Positions 40,238 through 62,693 of a stretch of 64,000 bases of DNA are shown here, one piece after another. This DNA comes from Actinoplanes oblitus. Its GTDB lineage: Bacteria > Actinomycetota > Actinomycetes > Mycobacteriales > Micromonosporaceae. Where the stretch lies: contig NZ_CP126980.1 of NCBI RefSeq assembly GCF_030252345.1, positions 5,223,501-5,287,500 on the forward strand, read 5' to 3'. A model generated the notes under the pieces. The model saw nothing but the letters and a program-made list of their open reading frames with translations. It made no database searches and was not told the DNA's origin. Each line of letters opens with the position of its first letter. The stretch's first letter is position 1. The position numbers were made by a program, and so were the translations under genes.

Positions 40238-41044
40238 TCAGGGAAGCGGGACGCCGAGCTGGCGCATGAGGCCGGTGGTGTCCGCCTGGACCCAGCGCTC
40301 GACGATCTTGTTGTGCTCGATCCGATAGACCTCGACGCTGGTCCACTGGACCTGCTTCCCGGTCGGCTCGCGGTCGAAGAAGGGCTTCACATGCCGGCCG
40401 GTGAAGGTGATGTGGATGACCACCTTGCCGCCCTCGGCCGGATAGATCAGGTCGTGGTGCGAGGTGAAGTCGAGTGCCTCGTGGGCGTCCCGGATGATCG
40501 TCTTGAGCTCGTCGAGATCGCGCACGCTCCACGCCGGGTTGTTGTCGATGAACGACGTAGCGAACAGCTCGTCCATGTCGTCGTAGCGCCGTTCGTTGAC
40601 GACGTCGTTCAGCTTGCGGATCAGGGCGACGTTCTCCTCGTCCGCCGACAGCTGGTTCTTCAGGCCGAGCAGATCGTCCTGCGCCCACCGCTCCACGAAA
40701 CGGTCGCCGGAGATCCGCCAGATCTCGGTCGTCGTCCAGCTGACCGAGCGGCCGGTGGGCGCCTCGCCCAGCACGGCGCCGACATGCCGGCCGGTGAGCC
40801 GGCAGCGGGTGATCACCCGGTCGTCCACCGCGACCGCCTCGATCAATTCACCGGTCAGCTCGAGCGTCGCCTTGGCCTCCCGCATGGCGGCCAGGTACGA
40901 GTCGATGTCGTCGACCTGGAAGCCGGGGTGGTGGTCGACGAACCCCGGGTCGACCAGTTTCGTGATCGCGTCGTAGTCAGTGCTGTTGAAGGCGGTCAGG
41001 AAACGCTGGTAGAGCGCCACGTTCGGGTGTTCTGCGCTGGTCAT
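40238..41044 (-). CDS. Tandem SnoaL/NTF2-like protein
   Basis: This 268-residue protein is made of two related SnoaL-like (ester-cyclase-type) domains. Repeat 1 (about 5-130) has VALYQRFLTAFNSTDYDAIT and FVDHHPGFQVDDIDSYL, then TGRHVGAVLGEAPTGRSVSW. Repeat 2 (about 137-262) has VALIRKLNDVVNERRYDDMD, FIDNNPAW, then TGRHVKPFFDREPTGKQVQW. The shared TGRHV and PTG-x-x-V-x-W motifs show duplication within one gene. Each repeat could be an active cyclase or dehydratase. ATG 41044 follows AGGAGGT and overlaps the GMC stop (ATGA). Confidence 0.85.
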   Translation of the reverse strand: MTSAEHPNVALYQRFLTAFNSTDYDAITKLVDPGFVDHHPGFQVDDIDSYLAAMREAKATLELTGELIEAVAVDDRVITRCRLTGRHVGAVLGEAPTGRSVSWTTTEIWRISGDRFVERWAQDDLLGLKNQLSADEENVALIRKLNDVVNERRYDDMDELFATSFIDNNPAWSVRDLDELKTIIRDAHEALDFTSHHDLIYPAEGGKVVIHITFTGRHVKPFFDREPTGKQVQWTSVEVYRIEHNKIVERWVQADTTGLMRQLGVPLP

Positions 41045-42624
41045 CGTGCAACCTCCTGCAAGTAGCCGACGGATTCCTGTCGGATGAACTCGGCGGCGCG
41101 CTCGCCGATCATGATGGTGGCGGCGTTGGTGTTGCCGGCCACGATGGACGGCATCACCGACGCATCCGCTACGCGCAGACCCCGCACGCCGTGCACGCGC
41201 AGGCGCGGATCGACCACCGACTCGTCCGGGCCGCCCATCCGGCACGTGCCGACCGGGTGCCACAGCGTCGTGGCCGCGCGGGCCAGGAAGTCCCGCAGGT
41301 CCGCGGCCGCGGTCACCTCCGGTCCCGGGCCGAGCTCCGGACCGCGGAAGTCGGCGAAGGCGGCGGTGTTCGCCAGTTCCCGGGCCAGTCGCACCCCCTC
41401 GACCAGGACCTGCCGGTCGTGGTCGGTGGACAGATAATTGGCCCGCACCGTGGCCGGAACAGCCGGGTCGGTGCCGGCCAGCTCGACCGTGCCGCGGCTG
41501 GTGGGCTTGAGACCCACCGGGGCGAAGGTGAAGCCCGGCCCCTCCCACAGGCCGGCCGGTGCCCCGTCAGCCAGGAACTTCGCCGACCCGAAGGCGAACT
41601 GCAGGTCGGGCGCACCCGACCGGTCAGCGGCCGGCGTACGGACGAAGAGCCCGGCCTCGGACACCAGCTCGGCCGGCGGGTGCTCCCGGCGCGACTGGAA
41701 ACACACCGGCACGAAGAGGTGGTCCTGCAGGTTGCGACCCACCTCCGGCAGATCGACGAGGCAGCGGATGCCGTGCCCGGCCAGGTGCCCGGCCGGTCCG
41801 ATGCCGGAGAGCATGAGCAGCTTCGGGGTCTCGAACGCACCGGCGCTGAGCACCACCTCGCCGCCCACCTCGACCCGCGCCGGACGGCCGTGCCGCACGT
41901 ACTCCACGGCGCTGACCCGGCCACCGGTGACGACCATCCGGGTCACCTGCGCACCGACCTGGACGGTGAGGTTCGGCCGGTTCAGCACCGGGTGCAGGTA
42001 GCCGGTCGCCGCGCTGCTGCGCCGGCCGGCCGCGTCCCGGGTCACCTGGTAGTGGAACCCGAAGCCGGTCTGGTCGCCGGCGTTGTAGTCACGCTCCGGC
42101 TGATAGCCCAGCTCCTGGGTGGCCGCCACGAACGCCTCGGACACGCCGGTGAGCCGGTCGTGCCGGCGCACCTGGATGGGACCACCGGTGCCGCGATACC
42201 GGGGATCGCCGCCGGCGTAGTCCTCGGCCCGCCGCAACACCGGCAGCACCTCCTCGTACGACCAGCCCGGGCAGCCGTCCGCCGCCCAGCCGTCGTAGTC
42301 GGAGGGGTGACCGACCACCCACATCAGCGCGTTGATCGAGCTGCACCCGCCGACGACCCGCCCGCGGGCCACCGGGATCCGCCGGCCGGCCAGAGCGGCC
42401 TCCGGCTCGGTCCGATAGCCCCAGTCGATCGTCGGCGCCCAGTCCGCGGTCCACAGCGCCGTCGTCGACGGCAGATCGACCCGGTGGATCTCCTCCCTGG
42501 TGTCCCAGCCGCCGGCTTCCAGCAGCAGCACCGAACGGTCCCCGCGCTCGCTCAGGCGACTCGCGACGGCGCAGCCGGCCGAGCCGGCGCCGACGACCAC
42601 GTAATCGGCGTACGAATCGCTCAT
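41041..42624 (-). CDS. GMC-family FAD oxidoreductase, copy 2
   Basis: This 527-residue enzyme has FAD motif VVGAGSAGCAVASRL, GMC signature GRVVGGCSSINALMW, LSAGAFETPKLLMLSGIGP, and the catalytic His in TLWHPVGTCRMG with Asn in AGNTNAATIM. It is clearly diverged from the first GMC gene, so the pair are likely paralogues with different substrates. ATG 42624 is set by GGAGG five bases upstream. It is the first gene of the minus-strand cluster, coupled to the tandem SnoaL gene. Confidence 0.93.
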   Translation of the reverse strand: MSDSYADYVVVGAGSAGCAVASRLSERGDRSVLLLEAGGWDTREEIHRVDLPSTTALWTADWAPTIDWGYRTEPEAALAGRRIPVARGRVVGGCSSINALMWVVGHPSDYDGWAADGCPGWSYEEVLPVLRRAEDYAGGDPRYRGTGGPIQVRRHDRLTGVSEAFVAATQELGYQPERDYNAGDQTGFGFHYQVTRDAAGRRSSAATGYLHPVLNRPNLTVQVGAQVTRMVVTGGRVSAVEYVRHGRPARVEVGGEVVLSAGAFETPKLLMLSGIGPAGHLAGHGIRCLVDLPEVGRNLQDHLFVPVCFQSRREHPPAELVSEAGLFVRTPAADRSGAPDLQFAFGSAKFLADGAPAGLWEGPGFTFAPVGLKPTSRGTVELAGTDPAVPATVRANYLSTDHDRQVLVEGVRLARELANTAAFADFRGPELGPGPEVTAAADLRDFLARAATTLWHPVGTCRMGGPDESVVDPRLRVHGVRGLRVADASVMPSIVAGNTNAATIMIGERAAEFIRQESVGYLQEVAR

Positions 42625-42937
42625 CGCCGCCTCCGTGGCGACGAGGTAACGGTGGTACAAAGCATCATCGGGACCTCCTGACAGGATCGAGACGTCGGAG
42701 CCGACACGAGAGGCGGCCGGATTGCCGGGGGCCTGTGGCGCGCAACCGGCGGCGGTGTCTGTCCCCCAGTCAACTGGCGGCACCGGCGCGCCGCTAACCA
42801 GAGGCGGCGGCGCGGGACGACTTCGCGGAGTTAACGTAGCCGCCCCGCGGCACGTTCCGGCTCGCCGATCCCGGGCAGTGGTGCGCCCGCTACCCGCCCG
42901 CGCGAGCGGCGATCGTTCTCAGGGGAAGGAACAGCGG
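42625..42937. other. Divergent promoter region between the GMC cluster and the TMEM175 gene
   Basis: No gene is seen. It should hold the promoter of the minus-strand cluster and that of the TMEM175-like gene. I could not pick out a convincing -35/-10 pair. Confidence 0.4.
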
Positions 42938-45987: not shown

Positions 45988-47313
45988 TCAGCGGCCAAAC
46001 CCTGTCCGCTGGACCTGATCACCACGGTGTGGACCAGGCGACACGTTTCTCACCGCCCCCGGCAGCCGCCGGCACACCGGAGCGACGACGGCGACGCCCG
46101 CCAGCGTCACCAGCAGCAGCGTGGCGAATCCGGCGGCGCCGACGATGTGCCGCTCGAAGCCGATGGTCAGCACGACGACCTCGGTCACGCCCCGGCAGTT
46201 GAGGAGCACACCCAGCCGCAGCCGGTCCGCCGCCGGCAATCCGCACGGCAGCGCGCCGAGCCAGGCGCCGCCCGCCTTGGCCACCGTCATGACGGCCAGC
46301 AGCAGGGCGAAACAGACGACCTCGGCACGCCCGCCGCTGAGCGCGCCGAGCGGCATGGCAAGCCCGATGGAGCCGAAGTACAGCGGCAGCAACACCGCCG
46401 ACGTCGTCGCCTCGAGGTGCTGATTGGCCCGCTCCACCGCCGGCACCCGGGGCATCACCACGCCGGCCAGCAGGGCCCCCGGCGCGGCGTGCAGGCCGGC
46501 GCCGTGGGTGACCGCGGCGAAGAGCGCCACCGACACCACGATCAGCGGCACCACCGCCGGGCCGGCGCCGGCCACCGCGGATCGCCGCGCCACCCACCGC
46601 ACCACGGGCCGGAGCACCGCCAGCGCCACCACGACCAGACCGAACAGGGCCGCCACCACCGCCCAGGCCGGCACCGGAACGGATCCCCGGCCCGCCACGG
46701 CGAGCAGGACGGTCAGCCCGGCCCACACCAGAGCGTCGGTGCACGCGGCCACCGTCAGGGCCAGCCTGCCGCAGGTGGTGCCGGCCAGTTCCACATCCGG
46801 AAGCAGGCGCGCCAGCACGGGCAGCGCCGTCACCGCACAGACCAGGGCGAGAAAGCCGGCGAACACCCCGCCGGGCACGCCGGCCGCGCCCACCACCGGC
46901 CGGATCACCGGGGCGACGGCCAGACCGGCCAGCACCGGTACGACCACCGCACCGGCCGTCACCGTCAGCACCGCGCTCGACCGGGGGCGGCCCGCGGTGC
47001 GCAGCTCGTAGCCGATCAGGTAGGCGAACAGGGCGATACCCAGATCGGCGAGCGCCCGCACCGCCGTCGCCGTGTCCGGCAACCGCAGCCACTCCACCGC
47101 TGCGGGCGCGACAGTGGCCAGGCCGAGCGGCCCGAGCAGCAGGCCGGCCAGGATCTCACCGAGCACCCGAGGCTGACCACCGCGGGCCGCGAGCGCGCCG
47201 CCGGCCGCGGCCAGCGCCACGACGACAGCGGCGGCGAGCAGAAAACGTACGGTGTCCGGAAGCTCCCGCACCGCGCACGTGACCTCGTACACCGCGGCAC
47301 AGTCCGTGTTCAC
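45988..47313 (-). CDS. CPA2-type cation/proton antiporter
   Basis: This 441-residue carrier has 12-13 hydrophobic segments. It has QPRVLGEILAGLLLGPLGL near the N-terminus (the CPA2 signature region), ALFAYLIGYELRTA, and CRGVTEVVVLTIGFE near the C-terminus. Members move Na+ or K+ against H+. The CRG(V)TE motif is typical of actinobacterial carriers that often sit beside biosynthetic or stress genes. GTG 47313 with GAGGGGG upstream is chosen. A strong hairpin separates it from the sugar operon, so it is probably transcribed on its own or by read-through. Confidence 0.85.
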   Translation of the reverse strand: MNTDCAAVYEVTCAVRELPDTVRFLLAAAVVVALAAAGGALAARGGQPRVLGEILAGLLLGPLGLATVAPAAVEWLRLPDTATAVRALADLGIALFAYLIGYELRTAGRPRSSAVLTVTAGAVVVPVLAGLAVAPVIRPVVGAAGVPGGVFAGFLALVCAVTALPVLARLLPDVELAGTTCGRLALTVAACTDALVWAGLTVLLAVAGRGSVPVPAWAVVAALFGLVVVALAVLRPVVRWVARRSAVAGAGPAVVPLIVVSVALFAAVTHGAGLHAAPGALLAGVVMPRVPAVERANQHLEATTSAVLLPLYFGSIGLAMPLGALSGGRAEVVCFALLLAVMTVAKAGGAWLGALPCGLPAADRLRLGVLLNCRGVTEVVVLTIGFERHIVGAAGFATLLLVTLAGVAVVAPVCRRLPGAVRNVSPGPHRGDQVQRTGFGR

Positions 47314-47377: not shown

Positions 47378-49587
47378 TCAGACCCGGAACAGCTCGGCCC
47401 GCTCCTCGCCGGCCACCAGGGAGACGGCCTCTCCGGAGGGGTCGATGTCGGCGAACACCTGGCGGACCGACTCGTTGGCCCCCACCACGAACGTCTCGGC
47501 GACGTGACGCTGCTGCTGCAACAGCACGATGGTGCGGGCGGCCGCGTCGTCCATGCTGTTGAGCCGCTCGGCCCGCAGCACCAGGCGCTGCGGCCGGTGG
47601 TCCAGCAGGGTGCGCAGGTCCTGCTCGAAGAGCCTCAGGTGGTCACCGTCCAGGTCGCCCTCGACGCTGATCACCACGATGTCGTCGCCGACGGTCTCCA
47701 GCACGCCGTAGGTCTGCGCCCGGGCCGGGGCCAACCGCACCTCGACCCGTACCGGGGAGTTCCCGGTCAGCGCGACGGTGTGCCGCTCGGCGTCGAAGTC
47801 GGTGTGCGGCTCACCGTCCACCCACACCTCGTGGATGATCACCTCACCGGCCGCGAGCAGATCCGGCGCCACCCGGAGCACGCCGTCCGGCAGCGTCGCC
47901 GGGTCGACGTGGAAGTGCAGGGCGAGCGGACGGCCGATCACCAGCAAGTCGTTGTAGACGGCGGACAGGTACGCCAGCTCGAACGCGTGATAGCCGGACA
48001 TGGCGTGGTTGCCCTTCATCCGCTCGCCGTGCACCAGGTACGGCGTGCCGTCGGCGAGCACGTTGAAGTAGACCCCGCCGGAGTCGTGATCGGGGAACCA
48101 GGACAGGTAGAAGGCCTGCGACTCGCGGGCCAGGCGGCGGAACTCCGGATCGTCGCGGCGCCCCGCGAGCACCAGGTACGCCAGGATCGCCTGCTCCTGC
48201 TGCCACCAGGCCTTGCGGTTGTGCCAGACCAGGCGGTGATACTGCTGCCGGTCGTCGCGCCAGCGTTCGACGACGTCGTACCAGCCGCCGCGCTGCCGGT
48301 CCTGGCCCACCTCCGGCATCCGGCGGGCCAGCCGCTCGGCCAGCTCCACGTACCGTTCGTCGGGGTGGATCGCGTGCACCCGCATCAGGTTCCAGGCGAT
48401 CTTGAGGTTGTGCCCGACCACCGCCCGGTTCTGCTGCCAGCCCCAGTGCAGGTCGGGTCGCCAGTCCTCGTGGAACCGCTCGTTGACGAACGGGCTCGCG
48501 TCGTCCGGGAACTTCTCCACGATGGTGTCGGCCAGGCGCACCAGCATCTCCCGGTGCCGGTCGTCGCCGGTGGCGAGCAACAGATTGATCAGGTACGCCG
48601 GCGCGTGGTCACCCACCGAGTTCCAGTTCTTGCGGGCGCGGTTGCTGCCCAGCGACTCGTGCCGCGGGTCGAGGTGGACGGCGTCGACGTGCGAGAAGTA
48701 CCCGCCACCCGATTCGTCGCGGTAGTAGCCGTCGATGAAGTCGATGGTGTCCCGCACCGCCTGGCCGATCTCCGGGTCCCGGGTGACGCGGTAGGTCTGG
48801 GCCAGGCCGGCGAGCGCGTAGATCTGTTCGTAGAGCGGGATCGAGCCGGCGTCGTCGTCGAACTCCGAGACGAGCAGCTTCACCGGCGGGTCGGTGCGGT
48901 CCAGGCCGTGTACCCAGAAGTGTCCCGCACCGCCGGGCACCCGGCTGCGCATGTGCTCGATCATGTAAGCGCACCCGCCGCGGGCCGCGCTGAGGAAGCG
49001 CTCCTCACCCGTCAGCGCGTACGCGGTCGCCAGCCCGTAGATGAACCGGGACAGCGTGGCGGTCTCCTGCCGCTCGTCGACCTTCTCGCCGGAAACCCCC
49101 AGCCGGGTCCGGTACTCGCGGAAGTCGACCTCGTCGCCGAACTGGGCACCCAGGTAGAAATCCGCCAGGGCGGACAGGTGCCGGCTCCAGAAGCCCGGCT
49201 CCTCGAAGACGGGTCGGCCGGTCTGCTCCTCCACCAGCATCATGTGCTTGCCTTCGAACGCGAAGCCGCTGCCCTCCGGATAGAACATGCCGTGGGCGAA
49301 GACGAAACGACCCTCGGCCAGCAGTTCCCGCAGGCTGCCCGTGACGTCGCGCACCGGATCGCCGAAATTGCGCAGCAGCTCACCCTGGGTGGTTCCGGTC
49401 AGCAGCACCGGGAAGCACCGGTCGTCGACGGTACGGACCTCGACCAGGTCCGTCTCCGGGTCGAAGGCGACCACGTAGCCGGCGATGAGGTCGGAGAACG
49501 AGAAACGCATGTCGTCCAGGGAGATCTCGCCGGGTGCCCGGTCCGGCCCCGGCTCCGACGTCGGGACCACTGTCGGCGAAGGACTGG

Positions 49588-49591
<4 letters not shown>
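47378..49591 (-). CDS. N-acylglucosamine-2-epimerase-type (alpha/alpha)6 barrel fused to a STAS domain
   Basis: This 737-residue protein has three parts. Residues 1 to about 110 resemble the small N-terminal domain of glycan-processing proteins. The long (alpha/alpha)6 barrel (about 120-560) is of the AGE/cellobiose-2-epimerase type, with HWGWQQNRAVVGHNLKIAW, WWQQEQAILAYLVL and GNHAMSGYHAFELAYL holding the usual histidines. The C-terminal STAS domain (about 634-737) has IVVISVEGDLDGDHLRLFEQ and RLNSMDDAAARTIVLLQQQ, with a serine at the phosphosite position. STAS domains act in partner-switching stress control. ATG 49591 overlaps the glgX stop, so the fusion belongs to the trehalose/glycogen operon. 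Confidence 0.8.
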
Positions 49592-51731
<2,140 letters not shown>

Positions 51732-51735
<4 letters not shown>

Positions 51736-52406
51736 GACGCACCCACCGCGTGGTTCCGGCTGCGCGAGCCACGGGGCAGGTCGCCGGTGTCGTCCGGCAC
51801 CGCCGGCACGTCGCGCATCCCGCGCGGCAGCGCACCCCGCCGGCGGGCGATCGCACTGATCAGGGCCGCGGCGAAGGCGTGGCAGTGCTCGCCGGTCCGG
51901 GCCGTGACCAGGTCGTCGTCGACGACGACGTCGGAGTCGACGTAGTCGACGCCCATGTTGCGCAGGTCGCCCAGCAGATTGTTGTGCGCGACCGCGCGGC
52001 GTCCGCGGACCAGTTCGGGCCGCGGGGCGACCAGCCACATCCCGTGACAGATCAGGCCCTTGACCACGTCGTGGTGGGCGAACGCCCGGGCGAGGAACTC
52101 GGTGGCCGGCGGCAGCCGGTCCGGGCTGTCGGTGTAGCGCAGCCGGTCGGCCACCATGCCGGACGGCACGATGATCGCCGAGTAACCGGCCAGCTCGGCA
52201 TCCCCGATCGGCTCGAAGCTCTCCCCGCAGACGAACGGCGCGCCGAACTCGTGACCGGTGAAGGTCATCTCCGGCTGTCCCCACAACCGGCTCAAGAAGT
52301 GCAGCTCCGCGCCTTCCTCGGCGAAGCGGTGCCGGTAGTAGAAGATCTCCGGCTCGTAGTAGTCACTCTCGATCAGAACGCCGATCCGGCATCCCTGTAG
52401 TCGCAT
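51732..52406 (-). CDS. DJ-1/PfpI-family protein, copy 1
   Basis: This 224-residue protein has a class-I glutamine-amidotransferase-like fold: IGVLIESDYYEPEIFYYRHR with the family's acidic residue near residue 18, YSAIIVPSGMVADRLR, and the nucleophile elbow LICHGMWLVAPRP (Cys at about residue 119, followed by His). PfpI-type proteins act as proteases, glyoxalases or protein deglycases; the reaction here is undetermined. Its stop overlaps the glgX start. The last ~30 residues (after RRRGALPRG) are basic and disordered. Confidence 0.88.
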
Positions 52407-52424: not shown

Positions 52425-54056
52425 TCAGCGGGTGTCCAACCGGACCAGGAACGGGCCGTCGTGCCCGAGCGCTTTCTCGACCGCGTCCACCGCCGACGCG
52501 GGCGCGTCGGCGTCGCAGGCGGCGACACCGAGACCGCGGGCCAGTGACACGAAGTCGATGTGCGGGTCGTCGAGCCGGAACGAGTCCGGTGCCTCGCGCG
52601 CCGGCAGGCCCTCCTGCGACCAGTACACGGCGATGTTGTCGCGCAGGATCTGGTAGTTGCCGTTGTCGCAGATCACGAACTTGGCCGGGATCCGGTGCCG
52701 GGCCGCGGTCCACAGCGCCTGGAACGTGTACATGCTGCCGCCGTCACCGGCGAAGCCGACCACGGTGGCCTCCGGCCGGGCCAGCTTCAGCCCCACCGCG
52801 CCGGGCAGTCCCACGCCCAGCGATCCGCCCCGGGTCAGAAAGTAGCTGTCCGGCCCGCCCGGCCGCAGGTGGTGCAACAGGTGCGGCGAGGCGGTGATCG
52901 CCTCGTCGAACACCACGAGATCCTCGGCCCGATCCCGCAACGTGCGCAGGAAGGTGTCGAGAACCGGCCGGTCCGGCGGTGTGCCGGCGGGCTGCCCGGC
53001 GAACTCGGCACGGCGCTGCCACGCCAGCTCCGCGCGTGCGGGGGTCATGTGGTGCCGCAGCTCCTCGCGGACCTGGTGCAACGTCGCCGCCGGATCGGCC
53101 AGCACCGGCACGTCGACCCGGTGGTTCTTGCCGATCTCCCAGGCGTTGAGGTCGACGTGCACCACCGTCGCCTGCTCGTCGAAGATCTCCCCCACCTCCG
53201 GGAAGACCTCCGGCAGCACCGACGTGCCGCAGATCAGCACGACGTCGGCCGCGTTGGTCACCGGCAGGCTGGCCGTACCGAACATGTGACCGAACTGCCC
53301 GCGGAAGCACGGATGCCGGTGATCCAGGTTGACCTCCGACCAGTCGCCGCCGTACACCGGCGCGCCGACCAGCTCGGCGACCTCGCCGAGCACCGTCTGG
53401 GCGCCGGACGCTGTCACACCGTCACCGGCGATGATCAACGGGCGCCGCGCGCCGGCGAGGGCCGCGGCGATCCGCCGCACGGTGTGGTGCGGCGGCGTCA
53501 CCGCGCTCTGCGGGATGGTCGTGGGCACGACGCGCTCCGAGTTCGCCGCGTCCAGCACGTCCATCGGCAAGGCCACGAAGACCGGACCGTACGGCGGTGT
53601 GGCGGCCACCTTGCAGGCGCGCCGGAGCACGCGCAGCAGCGAGTCGGGGTGCGTCACCCGGGTGGCCCACTTGGTCACCGGGCGCGCCATGGCGACCAGG
53701 TCGGCCGCCATCTGCGCGTCCAGTGCCTCGTATCGCAGACCGGCGTCGCCGGCGAGGACCACGAGCGGGGAGTGGCCGCGCATCGCCTGGTACATCATCC
53801 CGATGCCGTTGCCCAGGCCCACCCCGCTGTGCAGCTGCACGATCGCCGGCCGCCGGGTGGCCCGGGCGTAGCCGTCGGCCATGCCGAGCGCGGCGGCCTC
53901 GTGCAGCGCGAAGACGTACTCCAGGTCGGCGGTCTCCTGCAGCGCGTCCAGCAGCCCCTCCTCGACCGTGCCCGGATTGCCGAACAGGTACCGGTGGCCG
54001 TCCGCGACCAGTTGTTCGACCACGGCCTGCCGGCCGGGCCGGCTAGCGGTGCCCAC
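52425..54056 (-). CDS. Thiamine-diphosphate-dependent enzyme (acetolactate synthase/benzoylformate decarboxylase type)
   Basis: This 543-residue ThDP enzyme has the cofactor-activating Glu in FALHEAAALGMADGYA (about residue 53), the central domain AGARRPLIIAGDGVTASGA, and the ThDP-Mg motif GFAGDGGSMYTFQALWTAAR ending in NGNY. It decarboxylates a 2-oxo acid or ligates aldehydes. The group also includes benzoylformate decarboxylase and related enzymes of unknown substrate. The GTG 54056 start is 6 bp past the upstream stop. Its place between two DJ-1-like genes hints at reactive carbonyl handling, which is inference. Confidence 0.88.
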   Translation of the reverse strand: MGTASRPGRQAVVEQLVADGHRYLFGNPGTVEEGLLDALQETADLEYVFALHEAAALGMADGYARATRRPAIVQLHSGVGLGNGIGMMYQAMRGHSPLVVLAGDAGLRYEALDAQMAADLVAMARPVTKWATRVTHPDSLLRVLRRACKVAATPPYGPVFVALPMDVLDAANSERVVPTTIPQSAVTPPHHTVRRIAAALAGARRPLIIAGDGVTASGAQTVLGEVAELVGAPVYGGDWSEVNLDHRHPCFRGQFGHMFGTASLPVTNAADVVLICGTSVLPEVFPEVGEIFDEQATVVHVDLNAWEIGKNHRVDVPVLADPAATLHQVREELRHHMTPARAELAWQRRAEFAGQPAGTPPDRPVLDTFLRTLRDRAEDLVVFDEAITASPHLLHHLRPGGPDSYFLTRGGSLGVGLPGAVGLKLARPEATVVGFAGDGGSMYTFQALWTAARHRIPAKFVICDNGNYQILRDNIAVYWSQEGLPAREAPDSFRLDDPHIDFVSLARGLGVAACDADAPASAVDAVEKALGHDGPFLVRLDTR

Positions 54057-54062
54057 CGCCGC

Positions 54063-54938
54063 TCACCGGTCCCCGGCGGCGGCCGGCTCGGGCGCCACCA
54101 CGCCGGTACGCGGGACGAAGCCCCAGGTCCGCAGCCCCTTGTCCAGGACCTCGACCAGCTTGTCGCCGGTCAGCCGGGAGTCCGGGGTGGAGCGTCCGGT
54201 GATGAACGGGTAGTCGACGATCACCGACGTCTCCCGGCCGAAGTTGCCGATGTAGGCGCCGTCCGGCCCGGTCGCGTCGCGCAGGATGTACTCCAGCGGG
54301 TACGGCGGCGGCCCGATCACGAAGTCGGTGCCCTCGAAGCCGGTCCCGTCCTTGTAGTCGTACTCGATGCAGTGGCCGGTGACGTGCTTGCCGTCGATGA
54401 TGCTGCGCCGGTTCTCCTGATCGCGGGCGAACGCCAGGCACGCGACGCCGTAGCACTCCGCGGCGATCGGCTTGCCGGTCCGGTAAAAGTGCAGGATCAA
54501 CTCGTGCAGCCGGCCGTTGTTGGCCAGGTCCACGATCGGGCCGGAGCCGCCGACGATGAGCAGGGCGTCGTACCGGTCCGCCTTGCTCAGTTCCGCCGCC
54601 AGCGCCCGGAAGTACTCCTCCTGCCGGCGCAGGAAATCCGGCTCGCTGCGGTACGGGCGGTCCGGGAGCCACGCGGCCAGGTTGATCGGGTCGTCCAGTC
54701 GTGACGACGCGTCCAGCCGCCGGCCCTTGTCGGCCATCTCCGCCGTGGTCACCGAGCGGCCCAGCGGCGGGTCGACGTACTCGGGGTCCAGGCTGACCCC
54801 GATCGGCACCGGCCGTTTGCCGGTCGGGGTGGCGAAGTCCACCCGGTAGCCGGCCTCGTCCAGCGCCTCCAACGGCCCGACGAGTTCCTCAGCCCAGTAG
54901 CCGTACTCGGACAGTACGACCAGCACGGACTTGCTCAT
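54063..54938 (-). CDS. DJ-1/PfpI-family protein, copy 2 (Hsp31/glyoxalase-III-like)
   Basis: This 291-residue protein opens SKSVLVVLSEYGYWAEELVG, a strand-loop with the family Glu (residue 18). The nucleophile cysteine is in PIAAECYGVACLAF (about residue 164), and the sequence DALLIVGGSGPIVDLANN precedes it. The length and the extra C-terminal region (YPLEYILRDATGPDGAYIGN) match larger Hsp31/glyoxalase-III-like members better than the 224-residue copy downstream, so the two are distant paralogues. It lies 72 bp after the maltokinase gene in the same direction. Confidence 0.88.
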   Translation of the reverse strand: MSKSVLVVLSEYGYWAEELVGPLEALDEAGYRVDFATPTGKRPVPIGVSLDPEYVDPPLGRSVTTAEMADKGRRLDASSRLDDPINLAAWLPDRPYRSEPDFLRRQEEYFRALAAELSKADRYDALLIVGGSGPIVDLANNGRLHELILHFYRTGKPIAAECYGVACLAFARDQENRRSIIDGKHVTGHCIEYDYKDGTGFEGTDFVIGPPPYPLEYILRDATGPDGAYIGNFGRETSVIVDYPFITGRSTPDSRLTGDKLVEVLDKGLRTWGFVPRTGVVAPEPAAAGDR

Positions 54939-55010: not shown

Positions 55011-56444
55011 TCACCGAACGGCGGAAAACTGGTTGTCCGGTGCCGCCTGACAGTCCGCCGGCCCGGTGCGGCGGCTGCGCCGGCTGCGGGTGTTGCCGCC
55101 CCGGCCAGGCAGGGCGGGGCGCAGGCTCGGGCCGGTGAGCATCCGGCAGATCGCGGCCACGTCGGCCGGCGCGGGTTCGGCGCGGTGCACCAGCTCGCGC
55201 ACCGCGCAGTCGATCTCGTAGGCCCGCAGCACGCGCTCGTCGACACGGCCGCCGGCGTCGGCGTACCCGGTCAGGAAGGCCTGCCGGCAGCGGGCCACCC
55301 AGGCGCCGGCCCGTTGCCCGGCCGCCGCGTCACCGGGCGTCGCGGCGCGCGCCAGCTGATCACGCGCGGTCCACTCCAGCGAGCGGAGCACACCGGCGAC
55401 GTCCCGGGCGACCGGCTGCCGCGATCGCTGCTCCGGGGCCGTGCGGACCCAGTCGAAGTCGACCACCGCCCCCTGCCCGGTCAGCAGGATGTTGTCCAGC
55501 CGCAGATCGCTGTGCACCCGCTGGGCGACGACCGGCTCCCGGCCGGCGGCCACGTCGGCCACCTCGGCCAGTGCGGCGAGCAGCCGCGAGCGGTACGGCT
55601 GCAACTCCGGCACCGCGGCCGGCACGTCGTGCGCCTGTCGGATCATGTCGTTGGCGATCCGCCGCAGGTCGAGCGAGCTCAACCGGGCGCCGCGGAACGC
55701 GGCCAGCAGGTCGGCGTGCACCCGGGCGACACAGGTGCCCAGGCCGCGCGCGGTCATCATGAAGCCGGTCTCCGGCTCCTCGCCGGCGATCACCGCGCGG
55801 GCGCTGCGCACCGCCGCCTCCAGCGCGCCGTGGCCGGCCGGTGCGGCCTGCAGCGCGGCGAAGGTCACGGCGCTGCCGCGCACGTCCGTCTCCAAGGACC
55901 CGTGAAGTGCGCTGACGTGGCCGTTGCCCAGGGCGTGCAGGGCGCGGTGCAACTCCAGGCCGGGGTGCCCGCCGCCGGGGACGTGCCGGTACCACTTCAG
56001 CACGTACGTGTCGTCGACGAGCACCGGCGTGCACGCCGGGCCGCCGGTGCCGGGCCGTGGAGCGTCGACGACCGCGCAGCTGGGCCGGCCGCTCGCCACC
56101 GGTGCGGCGGCACCGGCGAAGACGGAGAGGACCAGACGCATCAGTTCCTCGTCCTGTGTGGCGTCGTAGACGCAACCGTGGTCGAGGTCTCGCACCACGT
56201 GGTCCGCCGCGACGGGCGGCGGGCCGGGCCGGATCCCGAGCGGCACCAGGCACCAGCCCGAGACGGGCCCGGCGCCCACCACGGCCAGCACGGCGGCCGG
56301 GCCACCGGCCGGCAACCGGTTGACCAGTACCGGGGCGCTGACGACACGCGCCCGGCCCCGATGACCGGCCGGACACCACGGCTGTCGCTGCAACCAGCCG
56401 GTCAGCGCGGCCAGCACCGGCGGGGCGTTCAGGTCGGGGATCAT
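55011..56444 (-). CDS. Maltokinase-like phosphotransferase
   Basis: This 477-residue protein has an N-terminal cap (VVSAPVLVNRLPAGG) and a C-terminal kinase lobe. VLVDDTYVLKWYRHVPGG carries the ATP lysine. RVHSDLRLDNILLTGQGAVV then VDFDWVR gives the Brenner-type catalytic and metal aspartates. In actinobacteria such kinases follow TreS and phosphorylate maltose to maltose-1-phosphate for GlgE. ATG 56444 begins 2 bp after the TreS stop. No glgE gene is in the window, and the sequence is diverged, so function is inferred from context. Confidence 0.82.
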   Translation of the reverse strand: MIPDLNAPPVLAALTGWLQRQPWCPAGHRGRARVVSAPVLVNRLPAGGPAAVLAVVGAGPVSGWCLVPLGIRPGPPPVAADHVVRDLDHGCVYDATQDEELMRLVLSVFAGAAAPVASGRPSCAVVDAPRPGTGGPACTPVLVDDTYVLKWYRHVPGGGHPGLELHRALHALGNGHVSALHGSLETDVRGSAVTFAALQAAPAGHGALEAAVRSARAVIAGEEPETGFMMTARGLGTCVARVHADLLAAFRGARLSSLDLRRIANDMIRQAHDVPAAVPELQPYRSRLLAALAEVADVAAGREPVVAQRVHSDLRLDNILLTGQGAVVDFDWVRTAPEQRSRQPVARDVAGVLRSLEWTARDQLARAATPGDAAAGQRAGAWVARCRQAFLTGYADAGGRVDERVLRAYEIDCAVRELVHRAEPAPADVAAICRMLTGPSLRPALPGRGGNTRSRRSRRTGPADCQAAPDNQFSAVR

Positions 56445-56446
56445 CG

Positions 56447-58225
<1,779 letters not shown>

Positions 58226-58627
58226 GCCGACTCACCTGACTTCCTGACGGGTGCGCTGAACACTTCGCCGATGCCGCCCCGGCCTAATCGGCCCGATCGA
58301 CACTCAGTCAACTTGGCTAATTCGCTCGATCCCCGCCGGATGCCGACAGCCGTCAATGACTTCTCGTGATCCGGAAACGACTTCGTGCACTCGATGGCGC
58401 AGCCCGGCGACAACAAGATCAGCGAATGCCACGGCTATCTTCCCTAAAACGACAAACCCGCCCGACGGCCTGTCATACCCGCCCTGACCTGCTATATCGG
58501 CCCCTCAACAACCAGCATTGCCGTGTGACGAACGCCGCGCTCGCGCAGGAACGTTAGGTTGACCTTGTCGGCGAAGGCGGCACCTGGCAACGATCCGAAG
58601 GTCCATGGGTGACTTCGGGGGGCCGCC
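58226..58627. other. Divergent promoter region between treS and the transposase-like pair
   Basis: No gene is seen in about 400 bp, and GC content is lower than in the flanks. On the minus strand a TTGACT (58306-58311) could be the treS -35. The repeated CGATCGG/CGGCCTAATCGG-like sequence near 58280-58300 is partly palindromic. Confidence 0.4.
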
Positions 58628-59794
58628 ATGCTGGTACGTTTTTCCACGCCCGAGATCGATCAAAGATTTGTGGAGTCCATCCACGACGACCGGCTCGGGG
58701 AATTCGTAAAGAATGTATTCAGCGCATTGCCCCGCTCGGACCAGCGCCGCTGGGCGGAAATCTACACTCGCGGGCTACTGCTGGGCACCGGGCCCAAATC
58801 GATCCGCCGGACGGCGCAGGAACTCGTGGCCGAGCCGGCCATCCAGTCGCTGCAACAGTTCGTCAACCAGAGCCCCTGGGACTGGCAGCCGATTCGGGAG
58901 CGGCTGGCGGCCGAGGTGCAGGCCCGCCTCTCCCCGGAGGCCTGGGTGGTGGTCGCCAACATCACCAGCAAGCGCGGTGACAAGTCGATCGGCGTGGAGC
59001 GGCGCTTCGTGCCCTCCGAGGGACGCCTGATCAACTGCCAGATGGGCCTGGGCCTGATGGCCACCTCGCGGCTGCACGGCGTGCCGATCGACTGGCGCCT
59101 GGTCCTGTCGCCCCGCTGGACCGACGACCCGGCCCGCCGCGCCAAGGCCCGCATTCCCGACGGTGTGCACGCCCGGGCCGAGTGGGAGGAGGTCCTCGAC
59201 ATGGTGCGCCAGGTGCGCGACCGGTGGGGCATGCCGGTCGCTCCCCTGCTCGGCGAATGGCGCACCCCGGGCGCCGTCGAACTGGTGAACAGCCTGGTCG
59301 CCCTCGATCAGCCGTTCGCACTCGAGGTGGACGGCTCCCTGCTGGTGGCCCCCGCGCACCGGCCGCTGGCACCGGCCGGTCAGCGTGACGCCTGGCAGAT
59401 GGCACCCCGCCCGCTGGCCCAGCACGCCCGGATCTGGGAGAAGTCGCACCGGCACATCATCGTCGCCACCGGCCAGTCCTCGGCCCGGGTGGTGTCCATG
59501 CCGATCACCATGGCGCCGACCGCCTCCCGCTTCGGCGCGGCGGTCGACGTACGCCTCATCGCGGCACACCCGACCGGCAGCGAACCGCCCCGGTACTGGG
59601 TCACCAACCTGTTCGACGCCCCGCTGCAGGAGATCATCTTCCTGCTGCAGTTACGGGAGACAGCCGACCGCGCCTCGGACCGGCTCTACACCGAGTTCGG
59701 CGTCAGCGACTTCGAGGGCCGGTCGTTCCTCGGATGGCACCACCACGCCACCCTGGTCTCCACCGCCTGCGCCTATGACTGCCTCTACCGATGA
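58628..59794 (+). CDS. IS701-type transposase homologue lacking catalytic aspartates, copy 1
   Basis: This 388-residue protein matches IS701-family transposases in its N-terminal helical domain: FSALPRSDQRRWAEIYTRGL, GPKSIRRTAQELV, SLQQFVNQSPWDWQPIRERL. Where active enzymes have W-V-x-D-D-T-G-x-x-K, this one has W106-V-V-V109-A110-N-I-T-S-K115, so both aspartates are gone. The second catalytic segment (usually V-A-D-A-G-Y-G) is APLLGEWRTPG, again with no Asp. The frame is intact and there are no terminal inverted repeats nearby. ATG 58628 follows GGGGGG. It is followed 51 bp later by a paralogue with the same losses. Confidence 0.75.
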   Translation: MLVRFSTPEIDQRFVESIHDDRLGEFVKNVFSALPRSDQRRWAEIYTRGLLLGTGPKSIRRTAQELVAEPAIQSLQQFVNQSPWDWQPIRERLAAEVQARLSPEAWVVVANITSKRGDKSIGVERRFVPSEGRLINCQMGLGLMATSRLHGVPIDWRLVLSPRWTDDPARRAKARIPDGVHARAEWEEVLDMVRQVRDRWGMPVAPLLGEWRTPGAVELVNSLVALDQPFALEVDGSLLVAPAHRPLAPAGQRDAWQMAPRPLAQHARIWEKSHRHIIVATGQSSARVVSMPITMAPTASRFGAAVDVRLIAAHPTGSEPPRYWVTNLFDAPLQEIIFLLQLRETADRASDRLYTEFGVSDFEGRSFLGWHHHATLVSTACAYDCLYR

Positions 59795-59845
59795 CGGTTA
59801 CCATGAGTGTCCACATTGGCATCTCGTGGTGAAGGGGAGCCGCGA

Positions 59846-60988
59846 TTGACCAACATCGACGAGACACCGGCCGACGCGTGGTTGCGCGAGTTCGCCGACC
59901 GGGTCTTCGCCTCGCTCCCCCGCTCGGACCAGCGACGATGGGCGCAGCTCTACCTGATCGGCCTGCTGCGGGACGGGCCGCAGGCCATCTCCCGCACCGC
60001 GGAGGCCGTCCCGGGCAGGTCAGCCGTCCAATCGTTGCAGCAGTTCATCAACCAGAGCCCCTGGGACTGGGCGCCGGTGCGCGCCCAGGTCGCGCTGGAA
60101 ATCCACGAGCGGATGGGACCGCGGGCCTGGACCGCCGCCTACTTGGTGATCCCCAAACGTGGTGGACAGGCGGCCGGCGTCGACCGCCGCTTCGTACCGG
60201 CGCTGGATCGGACGGTCAATTCCCAGGCGGCCGTCAGCCTGCTCCTCACCGGATCCGCCGGCGGCATCCCGGTGAACTGGCGGCTTCTGCTGTCACCGCG
60301 CTGGATCGCCGATCCGGATCTCCGGCGCCAGGCCCGGATCCCGCCCTCCGTGGCGGCCCGCTCGGAGTGGGAGGAACTCGTCGACATGGTGAGCGAGCTC
60401 CAGCAGTGGGGACTGCCGCGGCGGCCGCTCGTCGCCCAGTGGTCCGGCATACCCGGCGCTGACCAGCTCATCGGCCAGCTCGCCCAGCAGGACCAGGGAT
60501 TCCTCGTCGGTGTCGACCCGCAGACCAAGGTCGTCCCGCATCGCTCCACCCGGGCCGACGGCCTCCGCCGATCACCGGCGCCGACCCCGCTGCCGGTGAG
60601 CCGATTCCCGGCCGGCGTCCAGCAGCGGGTCACCGTGGTCAACGGGATCACCGGCCGCAAAGAGGTCTTCCGGCTGTCCCAGCGCTCCCTCGCCTTTCCC
60701 GGGCAGGAGATGGCCAGTGGCCTCCGGTTGCTCGTGACGGGCCGCGCCGGTCAGGACCGCACGCCGGATTACTGGATCACGAATCTGCGCGACGCCAGCC
60801 CCCGGGAGCTGGCCGCCCTGCTGCAGCTGCCCCGGGTGGACAAGCCGGTCGGCGACTCGCTGCACGAGAAGCTGGGCATCCGCGCGTTCACCGGCCGGTC
60901 GTTCCCCGGCTGGCACCACTACGTGACCCTCACGTCCATCGCCGTCGCCCTGCAGAACTTCCTGCCGCTGGACGCCTTCTTCAATTGA
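59846..60988 (+). CDS. IS701-type transposase homologue lacking catalytic aspartates, copy 2
   Basis: This 380-residue paralogue of the preceding gene shares FASLPRSDQRRWAQLYLIGL, GPQAISRTAEAV, SLQQFINQSPWDWAPVR and the C-terminal FTGRSFPGWHHYVTLTSIA. The catalytic sites are lost: W95-T-A-A98-Y99-L-V-I-P-K replaces the DD motif, and RPLVAQWSGIPG replaces the second Asp segment. I place the start at TTG 59846, preceded by GGGGAG with 6-bp spacing; GTG 59807 would add 13 residues. The two genes are well diverged but both intact, so selection on a non-transposase function is likely. Confidence 0.72.
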   Translation: MTNIDETPADAWLREFADRVFASLPRSDQRRWAQLYLIGLLRDGPQAISRTAEAVPGRSAVQSLQQFINQSPWDWAPVRAQVALEIHERMGPRAWTAAYLVIPKRGGQAAGVDRRFVPALDRTVNSQAAVSLLLTGSAGGIPVNWRLLLSPRWIADPDLRRQARIPPSVAARSEWEELVDMVSELQQWGLPRRPLVAQWSGIPGADQLIGQLAQQDQGFLVGVDPQTKVVPHRSTRADGLRRSPAPTPLPVSRFPAGVQQRVTVVNGITGRKEVFRLSQRSLAFPGQEMASGLRLLVTGRAGQDRTPDYWITNLRDASPRELAALLQLPRVDKPVGDSLHEKLGIRAFTGRSFPGWHHYVTLTSIAVALQNFLPLDAFFN

Positions 60989-61118
60989 GTCCGGTACCGG
61001 CACATCGCTCGACCGGCTCGCGGCGAAGGCCGACGATCGGGGCAGCCGCGAAACGATCGGCCCGGCCGGCGGTGGTGGGTGGTCATCGTCGGCCTCCGGG
61101 AGAAGCTCCGGCTCCGGC

Positions 61119-62693
61119 TCAACCGCGCGTCCACTGCTGGTTGGCCCCTCCGTTGCAGGACCAGATCTCGACCGCGGTGCCGTTGGCGGTGCCGTTGGCG
61201 TAGACGTCCAGGCACTTGCCGGCGCCGGCGGCGGTCACCGTGCCGTTGCTCTGCAGCTGCCATCGCTGGTTGGCCTGACCGTTGCAGTCCCACACCTCGA
61301 CCCTGGTGCCGTCGGCAGTGGCGGCGCCGGTGACGTCCAGGCACTTGCCACCGCTGGTCCGCAGCTCCCCCGCCGCGGTGGCGGTCCACTGCTGGTTGCC
61401 ACCACCGTTGCAGTCCCAGATCGCGAGTGGCGTTCCGTTGGTCTGATTGCCGTTCGGTACGTCGAGACACCGGCCGGACTGACTGCCGCGCAACGCGAAC
61501 GTCCCCGTGGTGGACCCGGTACCGCCGGTGACGAGGTACATGGCCGCGCCGTGGGCGGGAACGGACGCGCTGATCGTCGAGCCGGTGGTGGACGTGGTGT
61601 GCGCCCACAGATCGCGTACCGAGTAGGACGCCGCGCCACCGAGCCCGAGCTGCGCGGCCGTGGTGGACACGGTCGCCGTGCTGCTCGCGCGGTTGAGCAG
61701 GACGACGGCGGCGGACCCGTTGGCCATCGGCTTGGCCCAGACCTCGGAGTTCCCGTTGTCGGCGATCCGGTTGCCCTGGCGCCCGCCCCAGTCCTGATTC
61801 ACGCCGATGACCTCGGTGTTGGTCAGGATCGCCTTGGTGGCGGCACTCATCGTGCGCAGGTCGTTGCCGGCGATCAGTGGAGCGTTCAACACCGCCCAGA
61901 GGCTGAAGTGAGCCCGGGACTCGGTGTCGCTGAGACCGTTGCCGACCTCGAGCATGTCCGGGTCGTTCCAGGCGCCCGGCTTCGAGTACGACATCCACCC
62001 CGGCTGGCTGTCCAGGATGCCCATCACCGAGTTCCAGTTGCCGGCGATGTCACCGGTGGTCCGCCACGAGTTCCCGGTCGCCGGTCCCCAGGAGCCGACA
62101 CTGTCGGTGCCCCAGTTGCAGATCGCGAACAGGATGGGCCGGCCCGACGTGGCCAGCGCGTCCCGCATCGCGGTGTATCGCTGCTGGCCGGACTTGCCCT
62201 GGGTGTCGCCGCAGTTGTCGTACTTCAGGTAGTCGATTCCCCACGAGGCCCACAGCTTGGCGTCGCGCTGCTCGTTGTTGAGGCTGGCCGGGTAGCCGGC
62301 GCAGGTGGTGAGACCGGCGGAGGAGTAGATGCCGATCTTGAGGCCCTTGCCGTGGACGTAATCGGCCAGGGCTTTCATGCCGTTGGGGAACTTCTGCGGA
62401 TCCGGGACGAGGTCGCCGCTGCCGTTGCGGGTCCTCTGCGACCAGCAGTCGTCGATGTTGACGTAGCGGTAGCCGGCCGCGGCCATGCCGCTGGACACCA
62501 TGGCGTCGGCCGTCTGGCGGATCAGTGTGTCGCTGACGTTGCAGCCGAAGCTGTTCCAGTCGTTCCAGCCGAGTTGGGGAGTGCGAGCCAGGCCGCTCTC
62601 GAGGGCCTGGGCCGGCTGGGCGGCGGCGAGCGCTACCGGCGTGGCCACCGCCACGAGCAGCGCCGAGAGGACAGAGCGGAGCGTCTTTCGCAC
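61119..62693 (-). CDS. Secreted GH27 alpha-galactosidase with ricin-B lectin (CBM13) domain
   Basis: This 524-residue secreted enzyme has a signal peptide (RKTLRSVLSALLVAVATPVA, cleavage after AQPAQA near residue 30). The GH27 barrel starts LGWNDWNSFGCNV. The nucleophile is Asp159 in YLKYDNCG and the acid is Asp246 in WNDPDMLEVGNG. A beta-sandwich follows. The C-terminal ~125 residues form a beta-trefoil with three Q-x-W repeats (GGNQQW, QANQRW, GANQQW). It releases galactose from galactosides in plant polysaccharide. GTG 62693 follows AAGGAG with 7-bp spacing. Confidence 0.94.
   Translation of the reverse strand: MRKTLRSVLSALLVAVATPVALAAAQPAQALESGLARTPQLGWNDWNSFGCNVSDTLIRQTADAMVSSGMAAAGYRYVNIDDCWSQRTRNGSGDLVPDPQKFPNGMKALADYVHGKGLKIGIYSSAGLTTCAGYPASLNNEQRDAKLWASWGIDYLKYDNCGDTQGKSGQQRYTAMRDALATSGRPILFAICNWGTDSVGSWGPATGNSWRTTGDIAGNWNSVMGILDSQPGWMSYSKPGAWNDPDMLEVGNGLSDTESRAHFSLWAVLNAPLIAGNDLRTMSAATKAILTNTEVIGVNQDWGGRQGNRIADNGNSEVWAKPMANGSAAVVLLNRASSTATVSTTAAQLGLGGAASYSVRDLWAHTTSTTGSTISASVPAHGAAMYLVTGGTGSTTGTFALRGSQSGRCLDVPNGNQTNGTPLAIWDCNGGGNQQWTATAAGELRTSGGKCLDVTGAATADGTRVEVWDCNGQANQRWQLQSNGTVTAAGAGKCLDVYANGTANGTAVEIWSCNGGANQQWTRG

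Follow-up and report, generated by a model that had tools for sequence, protein, structure and literature searches.

A pair of IS701-like proteins of Actinoplanes oblitus belongs to a domesticated transposase family and may regulate the adjoining treS gene cluster

From our analysis of a 64,000-nucleotide stretch of the Actinoplanes oblitus genome (contig NZ_CP126980.1, positions 5,223,501 to 5,287,500 of the forward strand; hereafter the window), two adjacent genes of the IS701 transposase type, here called A and B, were found to be probably domesticated. The host genome is a single 9.8-Mb contig. The clade of A and B appears to be a large actinobacterial family whose members often adjoin operons of sugar metabolism or genes of hormone-like signalling, a pattern that suggests a regulator derived from an old transposase. 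Domestication of the lineage is strongly supported at the family level because the catalytic columns are relaxed, the N- and C-termini are conserved, the fold is intact, relatives are under purifying selection and the neighbourhoods recur, and the original prediction of a probably domesticated pair holds at that level. The explanation we favour, with moderate confidence, is that A and B have been kept as sequence-specific DNA-binding regulators of the accompanying operon. The two genes and the interval that precedes them are as follows.

58628 to 59794, + strand: protein A, 388 amino acids (aa), domesticated IS701-like, with V109, E210 and D347 at the catalytic positions
59846 to 60988, + strand: protein B, 380 aa from TTG at 59846 or 393 aa from GTG at 59807, domesticated IS701-like, with A, Q and K at the catalytic positions
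58226 to 58627, no strand: intergenic region between treS and A, 402 bp, divergent, the presumed place of a regulatory site

Both + strand frames (58628-59794 for A and 59807-60988 for B) are free of internal stops, and the proteins, likely encoded in one operon, share 153 of 369 aligned residues (41%), in line with the intact frames and well-diverged copies that had been predicted. The start of B at TTG 59846 is more likely because the Shine-Dalgarno-like AAGGGGAG sits just 5' of it and a database copy (P0121) is 380 aa long. DDE_5, the sole Pfam match of either protein, scored 148 bits for A and 130 bits for B (cut-off 27), and the NCBIfam IS701 transposase model NF033540, which spans nearly the full length, scored 268 and 248 bits (cut-off 150). 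These scores confirm the adjacent IS701-type pair of the original prediction, and the N- and C-terminal motifs quoted there are present in both A and B.

Active multicopy relatives of the same genus read ALDDTG / IVADAGYG / RWRIEHD...K, the lysine belonging to a motif that we take to be of the 'YREK-type'. The residues aligned to the two aspartates and the glutamate (D/D/E) are V109, E210 and D347 in A and A111, Q211 and K346 in B (393-aa numbering), with Y354 and H353, respectively, at the lysine position. Neither protein has the D/D/E triad of a working IS701 element; A carries acidic but altered residues at two of the three positions, and B at none. The loss of catalytic aspartates, as had been claimed (V109/E210 in A, A111/Q211 in B), is evident in both, and the catalytic glutamate, absent from that claim, is also replaced (D in A, K in B). 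Since active copies exist that read DETG with the rest of the motif, we considered the first Asp as the invariant residue; the second D of DDTG was dropped as a catalytic residue, and a single DDE reading of homologue P0015 became void once the first Asp was taken as the catalytic column. The predicted models of A and B have a complete Tn5 transposase fold of the RNase H type and align to Tn5 from Tn5 residue 5, and alignment to the Tn5 inhibitor structure (1b7e) begins only at model residues 85 and 74. In the models, the altered positions are placed on the first strand, at the end of strand 207-210 (A) and in the long helix 333-355 (A), as would be expected of a DDE site. The checks that had been suggested, alignment with IS701 relatives and mapping on a predicted structure, agree in showing an altered triad and a retained Tn5 fold.

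We then examined the wider family through two protein searches (the best 120 of 447 and of 392 matches, each from about 8000 scored candidates), and the aligned set held 200 distinct homologues, A and B excluded. The first Asp is kept in 30 of these, the second in 179, the Glu in 21 and the Lys in one, which is indicative that catalytic loss was stepwise; all three acidic residues (first Asp, second Asp and Glu) are missing in only 18. The full D/D/E occurs in four homologues, each with His replacing Lys. These are a Streptomyces subgroup (P0060, P0079, P0085 and P0115, at loci L106, L107, L112 and L113), closely following a gene of the AGE epimerase family, which may represent a half-way stage or residual activity. 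A 105-row tree separated the closest active group, composed of six active rows and the active-type copy of locus L042, from 95 rows of the domesticated clade (Shimodaira-Hasegawa-like approximate likelihood ratio test, SH-aLRT, 96), and A, B and P0002 formed one clade (SH-aLRT 99). Column 109 of a 38-row alignment held E in 10 rows, A in eight, G in six, D in five and others, column 347 held R in 12, A in eight and others, and column 210 held D in 32. Conservation of at least 90% was found at 25 of 74 N-terminal and 14 of 28 C-terminal columns, the most conserved stretch being C-terminal (356-383). The ratio of nonsynonymous to synonymous substitution rates (dN/dS; Nei-Gojobori script) was 0.055-0.423 for 19 close pairs of domesticated relatives, hand-picked from near neighbours and compared over stop-to-stop frames holding some non-coding sequence that would raise the ratio. 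These values point to purifying selection within the family. The dN/dS check that had been suggested therefore bears on the family only, because the nearest relative of A and B, among the matches listed, is just 48% identical. In an even draw across the class, 25 of 296 genomes (own included) matched P0003 at 1e-40; in G410, G426, G441, G556, G558 and G620 an active query matched the same places, leaving 19 genomes, own included. Two tandem IS701 copies, each D/D/E, were also noticed at L136 (8765-11528, genome G057).

The genomic neighbourhoods were compared at 79 loci, retrieved among the 80 top-ranking of 560 confirmed ones, with genes called by a home-made script and clustered. Three contexts recurred: (i) AGE, GlgX, DJ-1, thiamine-pyrophosphate (TPP) enzyme and STAS genes; (ii) ScbR/AfsA genes, often followed by HxlR, DUF1702, UnbV/ASPIC and polyketide synthase (PKS) genes, a set which is presumably an enediyne-type core; and (iii) MmyB-type regulators. 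The AGE family was present in 27 loci (window included; 15 groups). Many of the 79 loci are near-copies, and therefore the locus counts are not independent. With genus and family loci added, the comparison covered 100 domesticated and 33 active loci, several of the latter being copies of a single element within the same genome: AGE was found in 27 vs 0, GlgX in 29 vs 0, TPP in 25 vs 1, DJ-1 in 17 vs 0, ScbR in 32 vs 0, AfsA in 24 vs 0 and MmyB-type genes in 22 vs 0. This count excludes L042 (both types), L106, L107, L112 and L113 (D/D/E though carbohydrate-type) and L128 (frame too short), and takes L157 as active and L188 as domesticated despite a profile score closer to that of active copies.

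From the even draw, the 20 best-scoring of 33 listed places were fetched, omitting the window's own two and the 11 weakest; by profile score, 19 were domesticated (15 genomes) and one was active. ScbR and/or AfsA accompanied 10 of the 19 domesticated loci and AGE/GlgX accompanied three, while neither context was found at the 13 loci of that draw which profile scores assign to the active type. These 13 come from nine genomes, with some of the frames partial and some stretches shorter than 20 kb, and one of them had an MmyB-type gene. The difference (13/19 vs 0/13) corresponds to a Fisher p of 1.2e-4 if the loci are independent. A recurrent context unlike that of active copies is thus observed for the protein family, and is weaker among the domesticated loci of the window's own genus and family (8/26).

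In PLSDB annotation, a 'transposase' lies between ScbA/ScbR and DUF1702/CRTAC1/type I PKS genes in one plasmid region, before HTH/DUF1702/CRTAC1 genes in a second (without ScbR in the stretch shown) and near an amylase-family gene and a STAS gene in a third. These three regions are on linear records, and two of them adjoin DUF1702/CRTAC1. Directly adjacent domesticated pairs, as in the window, were found at three of the 79 loci (L046, L073 and L078), and L042 has two domesticated copies with an active-type copy beside the first. Each copy of L046 is sister to one copy of L042 (99 each), and therefore the two-copy arrangement has lasted there, which would be compatible with a heterodimer but is no proof of one. 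At L042, a gamma-butyrolactone (GBL) locus, an apparently active IS701 copy (D/D/E/K, 1499-2710) directly follows a domesticated copy.

No terminal inverted repeat was found around A and B, in 402 bp to the left and 130 or 612 bp to the right; the best score was 9.5, a value that mononucleotide shuffles reached 38 times in 100 when the near right flank was used and 50 times in 60 when the flank was wider. The active element L017, as a positive control, has an 18-bp inverted repeat which none of 60 shuffles reached in the identical test, and the predicted lack of terminal repeats is thereby upheld. L017 has six copies in genome G024. The four matches to A in its own genome were A itself, B (42%) and two distant copies (30% over part), and there were eight DDE_5 places, several of them partial; no near copy of A, and hence no set of near-identical copies of the pair, was found there. 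A search of a phage collection with A gave no match.

Probably, A and B are host genes derived from an IS701-family transposase, in a lineage that would have lost DNA cutting and kept the Tn5-like scaffold with the N-terminal domain by which a transposase grips the DNA end. The pair would probably bind 58226-58627, repressing or activating the divergent operon as well as its own genes. The target here would be the treS-maltokinase-DJ-1-TPP-GlgX-AGE/STAS cluster, and elsewhere GBL circuits or similar clusters. We infer DNA binding and regulation because the Tn5-like N-terminal domain is kept and the neighbours are operons and ScbR-type regulators; the sign of that regulation and any A-B dimer are conjectural. 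As had been predicted, the pair is divergent from treS, with 402 bp (58226-58627) between them. Leftward from 58225 to 47378, the order is treS, maltokinase-like gene, DJ-1, TPP enzyme, second DJ-1, GlgX and AGE-STAS. The genes of this neighbourhood are as follows.

56447 to 58225, - strand: treS, maltose alpha-D-glucosyltransferase (TIGR02456, 825 bits, cut-off 678)
55011 to 56444, - strand: maltokinase-like gene (Mak_N_cap)
54063 to 54938, - strand: DJ-1/PfpI-family protein
52425 to 54056, - strand: TPP enzyme, benzoylformate decarboxylase / acetolactate synthase-like, under the cut-offs of those models
51732 to 52406, - strand: second DJ-1-like protein, 224 aa, resembling an L039 gene labelled DJ-1-like by eye
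49588 to 51735, - strand: GlgX-type debranching enzyme, the lowest-scoring of three above-cut-off GlgX copies in the genome
47378 to 49591, - strand: AGE epimerase with a C-terminal STAS-like (anti-sigma antagonist) stretch just under Pfam cut-offs
45988 to 47313, - strand: sodium/proton exchanger, downstream of AGE
40238 to 42660, - strand: two genes (40238-41044 and 41041-42660; clusters c13 and c7) that recur in other copies of the cluster

The AGE gene is present in 18 of 67 genomes of the genus, and five of them (the window's genome, G011, G045, G056 and G058) encode a domesticated protein no more than 10 kb away from it. The copies of the last four genomes form their own clade (SH-aLRT 100), separate from A and B, and therefore different lineages of the family joined the same kind of cluster. 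Relatives of the AGE-STAS protein (47378-49591) listed at about 50% identity include proteins from cyanobacteria and Chloroflexota, many of them named anti-anti-sigma factor; a Scytonema (cyanobacterial) AGE protein is 49% identical to the AGE of the window.

Several observations weigh against a regulatory role for A and B. Co-location does not prove regulation, and in 13 of the 18 AGE-bearing genus genomes no domesticated protein was found in the fetched 16-20 kb though the cluster is wholly or partly there; the cluster can therefore do without it. Neither context was present in six of the 19 evenly drawn domesticated loci or in 18 of the 26 from the window's own genus and family, where AGE/GlgX accompanied seven and ScbR/AfsA one. 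Searches of 66 other genus genomes gave no orthologue of either gene, and no close one turned up among 354 family-search genomes, and therefore the selection figures cover relatives and not the pair itself. The refuting outcome that had been named, absence of the pair from close relatives, is thus borne out in part, although a different lineage of the family lies near AGE in four of the genus genomes. No binding site was found in 58226-58627: the GACTTC repeats (four in this interval), tried as operator sites, were discarded as not significant since the most frequent 6-mer was equally high in 205 of 500 shuffles. No sigma-70-like promoter match was found in 58000-61300. For the predicted DNA-binding or regulatory role, the N-terminal domain and the neighbours remain as sound grounds.

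Upstream elements were seen in relatives. A GTTCGCTATTAT-like element is present upstream of 19 of 80 relatives, mainly of the GBL type; none was noticed on reading 58226-58627 by eye, with no dedicated search made of the window. Across Streptomyces species, a block of about 90 bases 5' of the domesticated gene (A-tract, GTTCGCTATTMT) is almost invariant at L065, L066, L075, L076, L082, L084, L086, L099, L102 and L110, least so at L099. It lies about 100-180 bases upstream of the RxDQR codons, is by eye more conserved than the coding start, and could be a promoter with an operator.

Alternatively, A and B could be retained host proteins that are not DNA-binding regulators, e.g., a partner of a STAS/kinase/phosphatase switch or a structural DNA-bridging protein. 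We consider this unlikely, although partner-switch genes occur in 29 of 124 domesticated and 22 of 36 carbohydrate-type loci but in none of 46 active loci (kinase-like HATPase and PP2C genes, e.g., at L235 and L119), and the most conserved stretch (356-383) is outside the N-terminal DNA-binding domain. That domain is strongly conserved too, and partner-switch genes in just one of 33 GBL-type loci make switch partnership unlikely as the common function. Between 40 and 64 kb of the window, we recognised neither a kinase nor a PP2C phosphatase gene. A trans-acting inhibitor of related active insertion sequences, which like the Tn5 inhibitor would bind their ends and block transposition, is quite improbable: it leaves the recurrent metabolic and GBL neighbours unexplained, A and B keep the N-terminal domain that the truncated inhibitor lacks, and the active copies in the same genome are distant (30% over part of A).

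Still less probable is that A and B are what is left of one or two decaying insertion sequences which chanced to land beside treS. The relatives are mostly annotated as transposases in databases, the pair is patchy with no orthologue in close relatives, and A and B have drifted as far as only 18 of the 200 homologues, but intact frames, a confident full-length fold, the lack of terminal repeats, purifying selection in relatives and contexts unseen around the compared active copies oppose such decay. The least credible to us is a passive association, in which the proteins ride on linear plasmids and mobile gene clusters and owe their retention to a part in mobility or maintenance. At 1e-20, 143 plasmid records (e.g., NZ_CP115938.1, NZ_CP029362.1 and NZ_CP016083.1; 118 of the 143 are Streptomyces) match a Streptomyces relative, in a count that does not separate out active copies, and the cluster itself is patchy in the genus, yet none of the 13 active-type loci from the same draw shows either context, and the tight AGE coupling and divergent ScbR-type pairing imply integration at the operon level. 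The favoured reading of A and B as regulators could also be extended, doubtfully, to a class of DDE-transposase descendants acting as the DNA-binding output of two unrelated actinobacterial signalling systems, GBL circuits and icfG-like STAS/kinase/phosphatase switches, with obligate heterodimers of two diverged copies at some loci and A/B as an extreme case.

If the regulatory reading is true, genes labelled 'IS701 family transposase' in antibiotic-producing actinobacteria, probably hundreds, may be regulators. Many of them adjoin ScbR/AfsA and apparent enediyne-type clusters, and an overlooked regulator there would be of consequence for the activation of silent pathways. Bacterial domestication would also gain a case based on a DDE transposase, and the icfG-like carbohydrate clusters of actinobacteria a candidate transcriptional output. 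No IS701-derived regulator family was found in the literature searched, which is weak evidence of absence since subscription papers were mostly outside its coverage, and a guess at a Streptomyces antibiotic regulatory protein (SARP) helper or TylU led to no relevant literature. In the accessible part of PMC9208149, IS701 is treated as a group of insertion sequences.

With IS701-family transposases, A and B share sequence above both cut-offs and a Tn5-like fold, and they differ in lacking D/D/E and terminal repeats, in being a single pair and in their recurrent gene context. The Tn5 inhibitor is an N-terminally shortened product of the active gene, without the N-terminal DNA-binding part. It has a transposase fold that does not cut and could bind transposon ends (1b7e), as may be true of A and B, which differ from it in keeping the N-terminal domain and in being separate, long-diverged genes. 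TldR proteins are TnpB-derived bacterial regulators beside operons, RNA-guided and of another fold; they are likewise mobile-element proteins turned regulators, and A and B differ in matching only DDE_5 in Pfam. In plants, FHY3/FAR1 are transposases reused as transcription factors, according to the available portions of PMC13306707 and PMC6000157; they are Mutator-derived and eukaryotic, and the corresponding regulation by A and B is putative. The closest likeness of the neighbouring cluster is to the cyanobacterial icfG operon: slr1852-slr1862 of Synechocystis includes the epimerase Slr1855, the anti-sigma antagonist Slr1856, GlgX and IcfG (PMC8670252, in part), and Slr1861 is a kinase and anti-SigC factor of this operon, which is tied to carbon/glucose metabolism (PMC12329169, in part). 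An AGE-type epimerase, a STAS protein (in the window a stretch just below Pfam cut-offs) and an isoamylase/GlgX are together in both, and by this analogy the transposase-derived protein could be the transcriptional output of an icfG-like cluster. The portions of these two papers that could be consulted name no transposase-like gene in the icfG operon, and the cluster of the window, unlike the operon as described there, adds treS, the maltokinase-like gene and the TPP enzyme.
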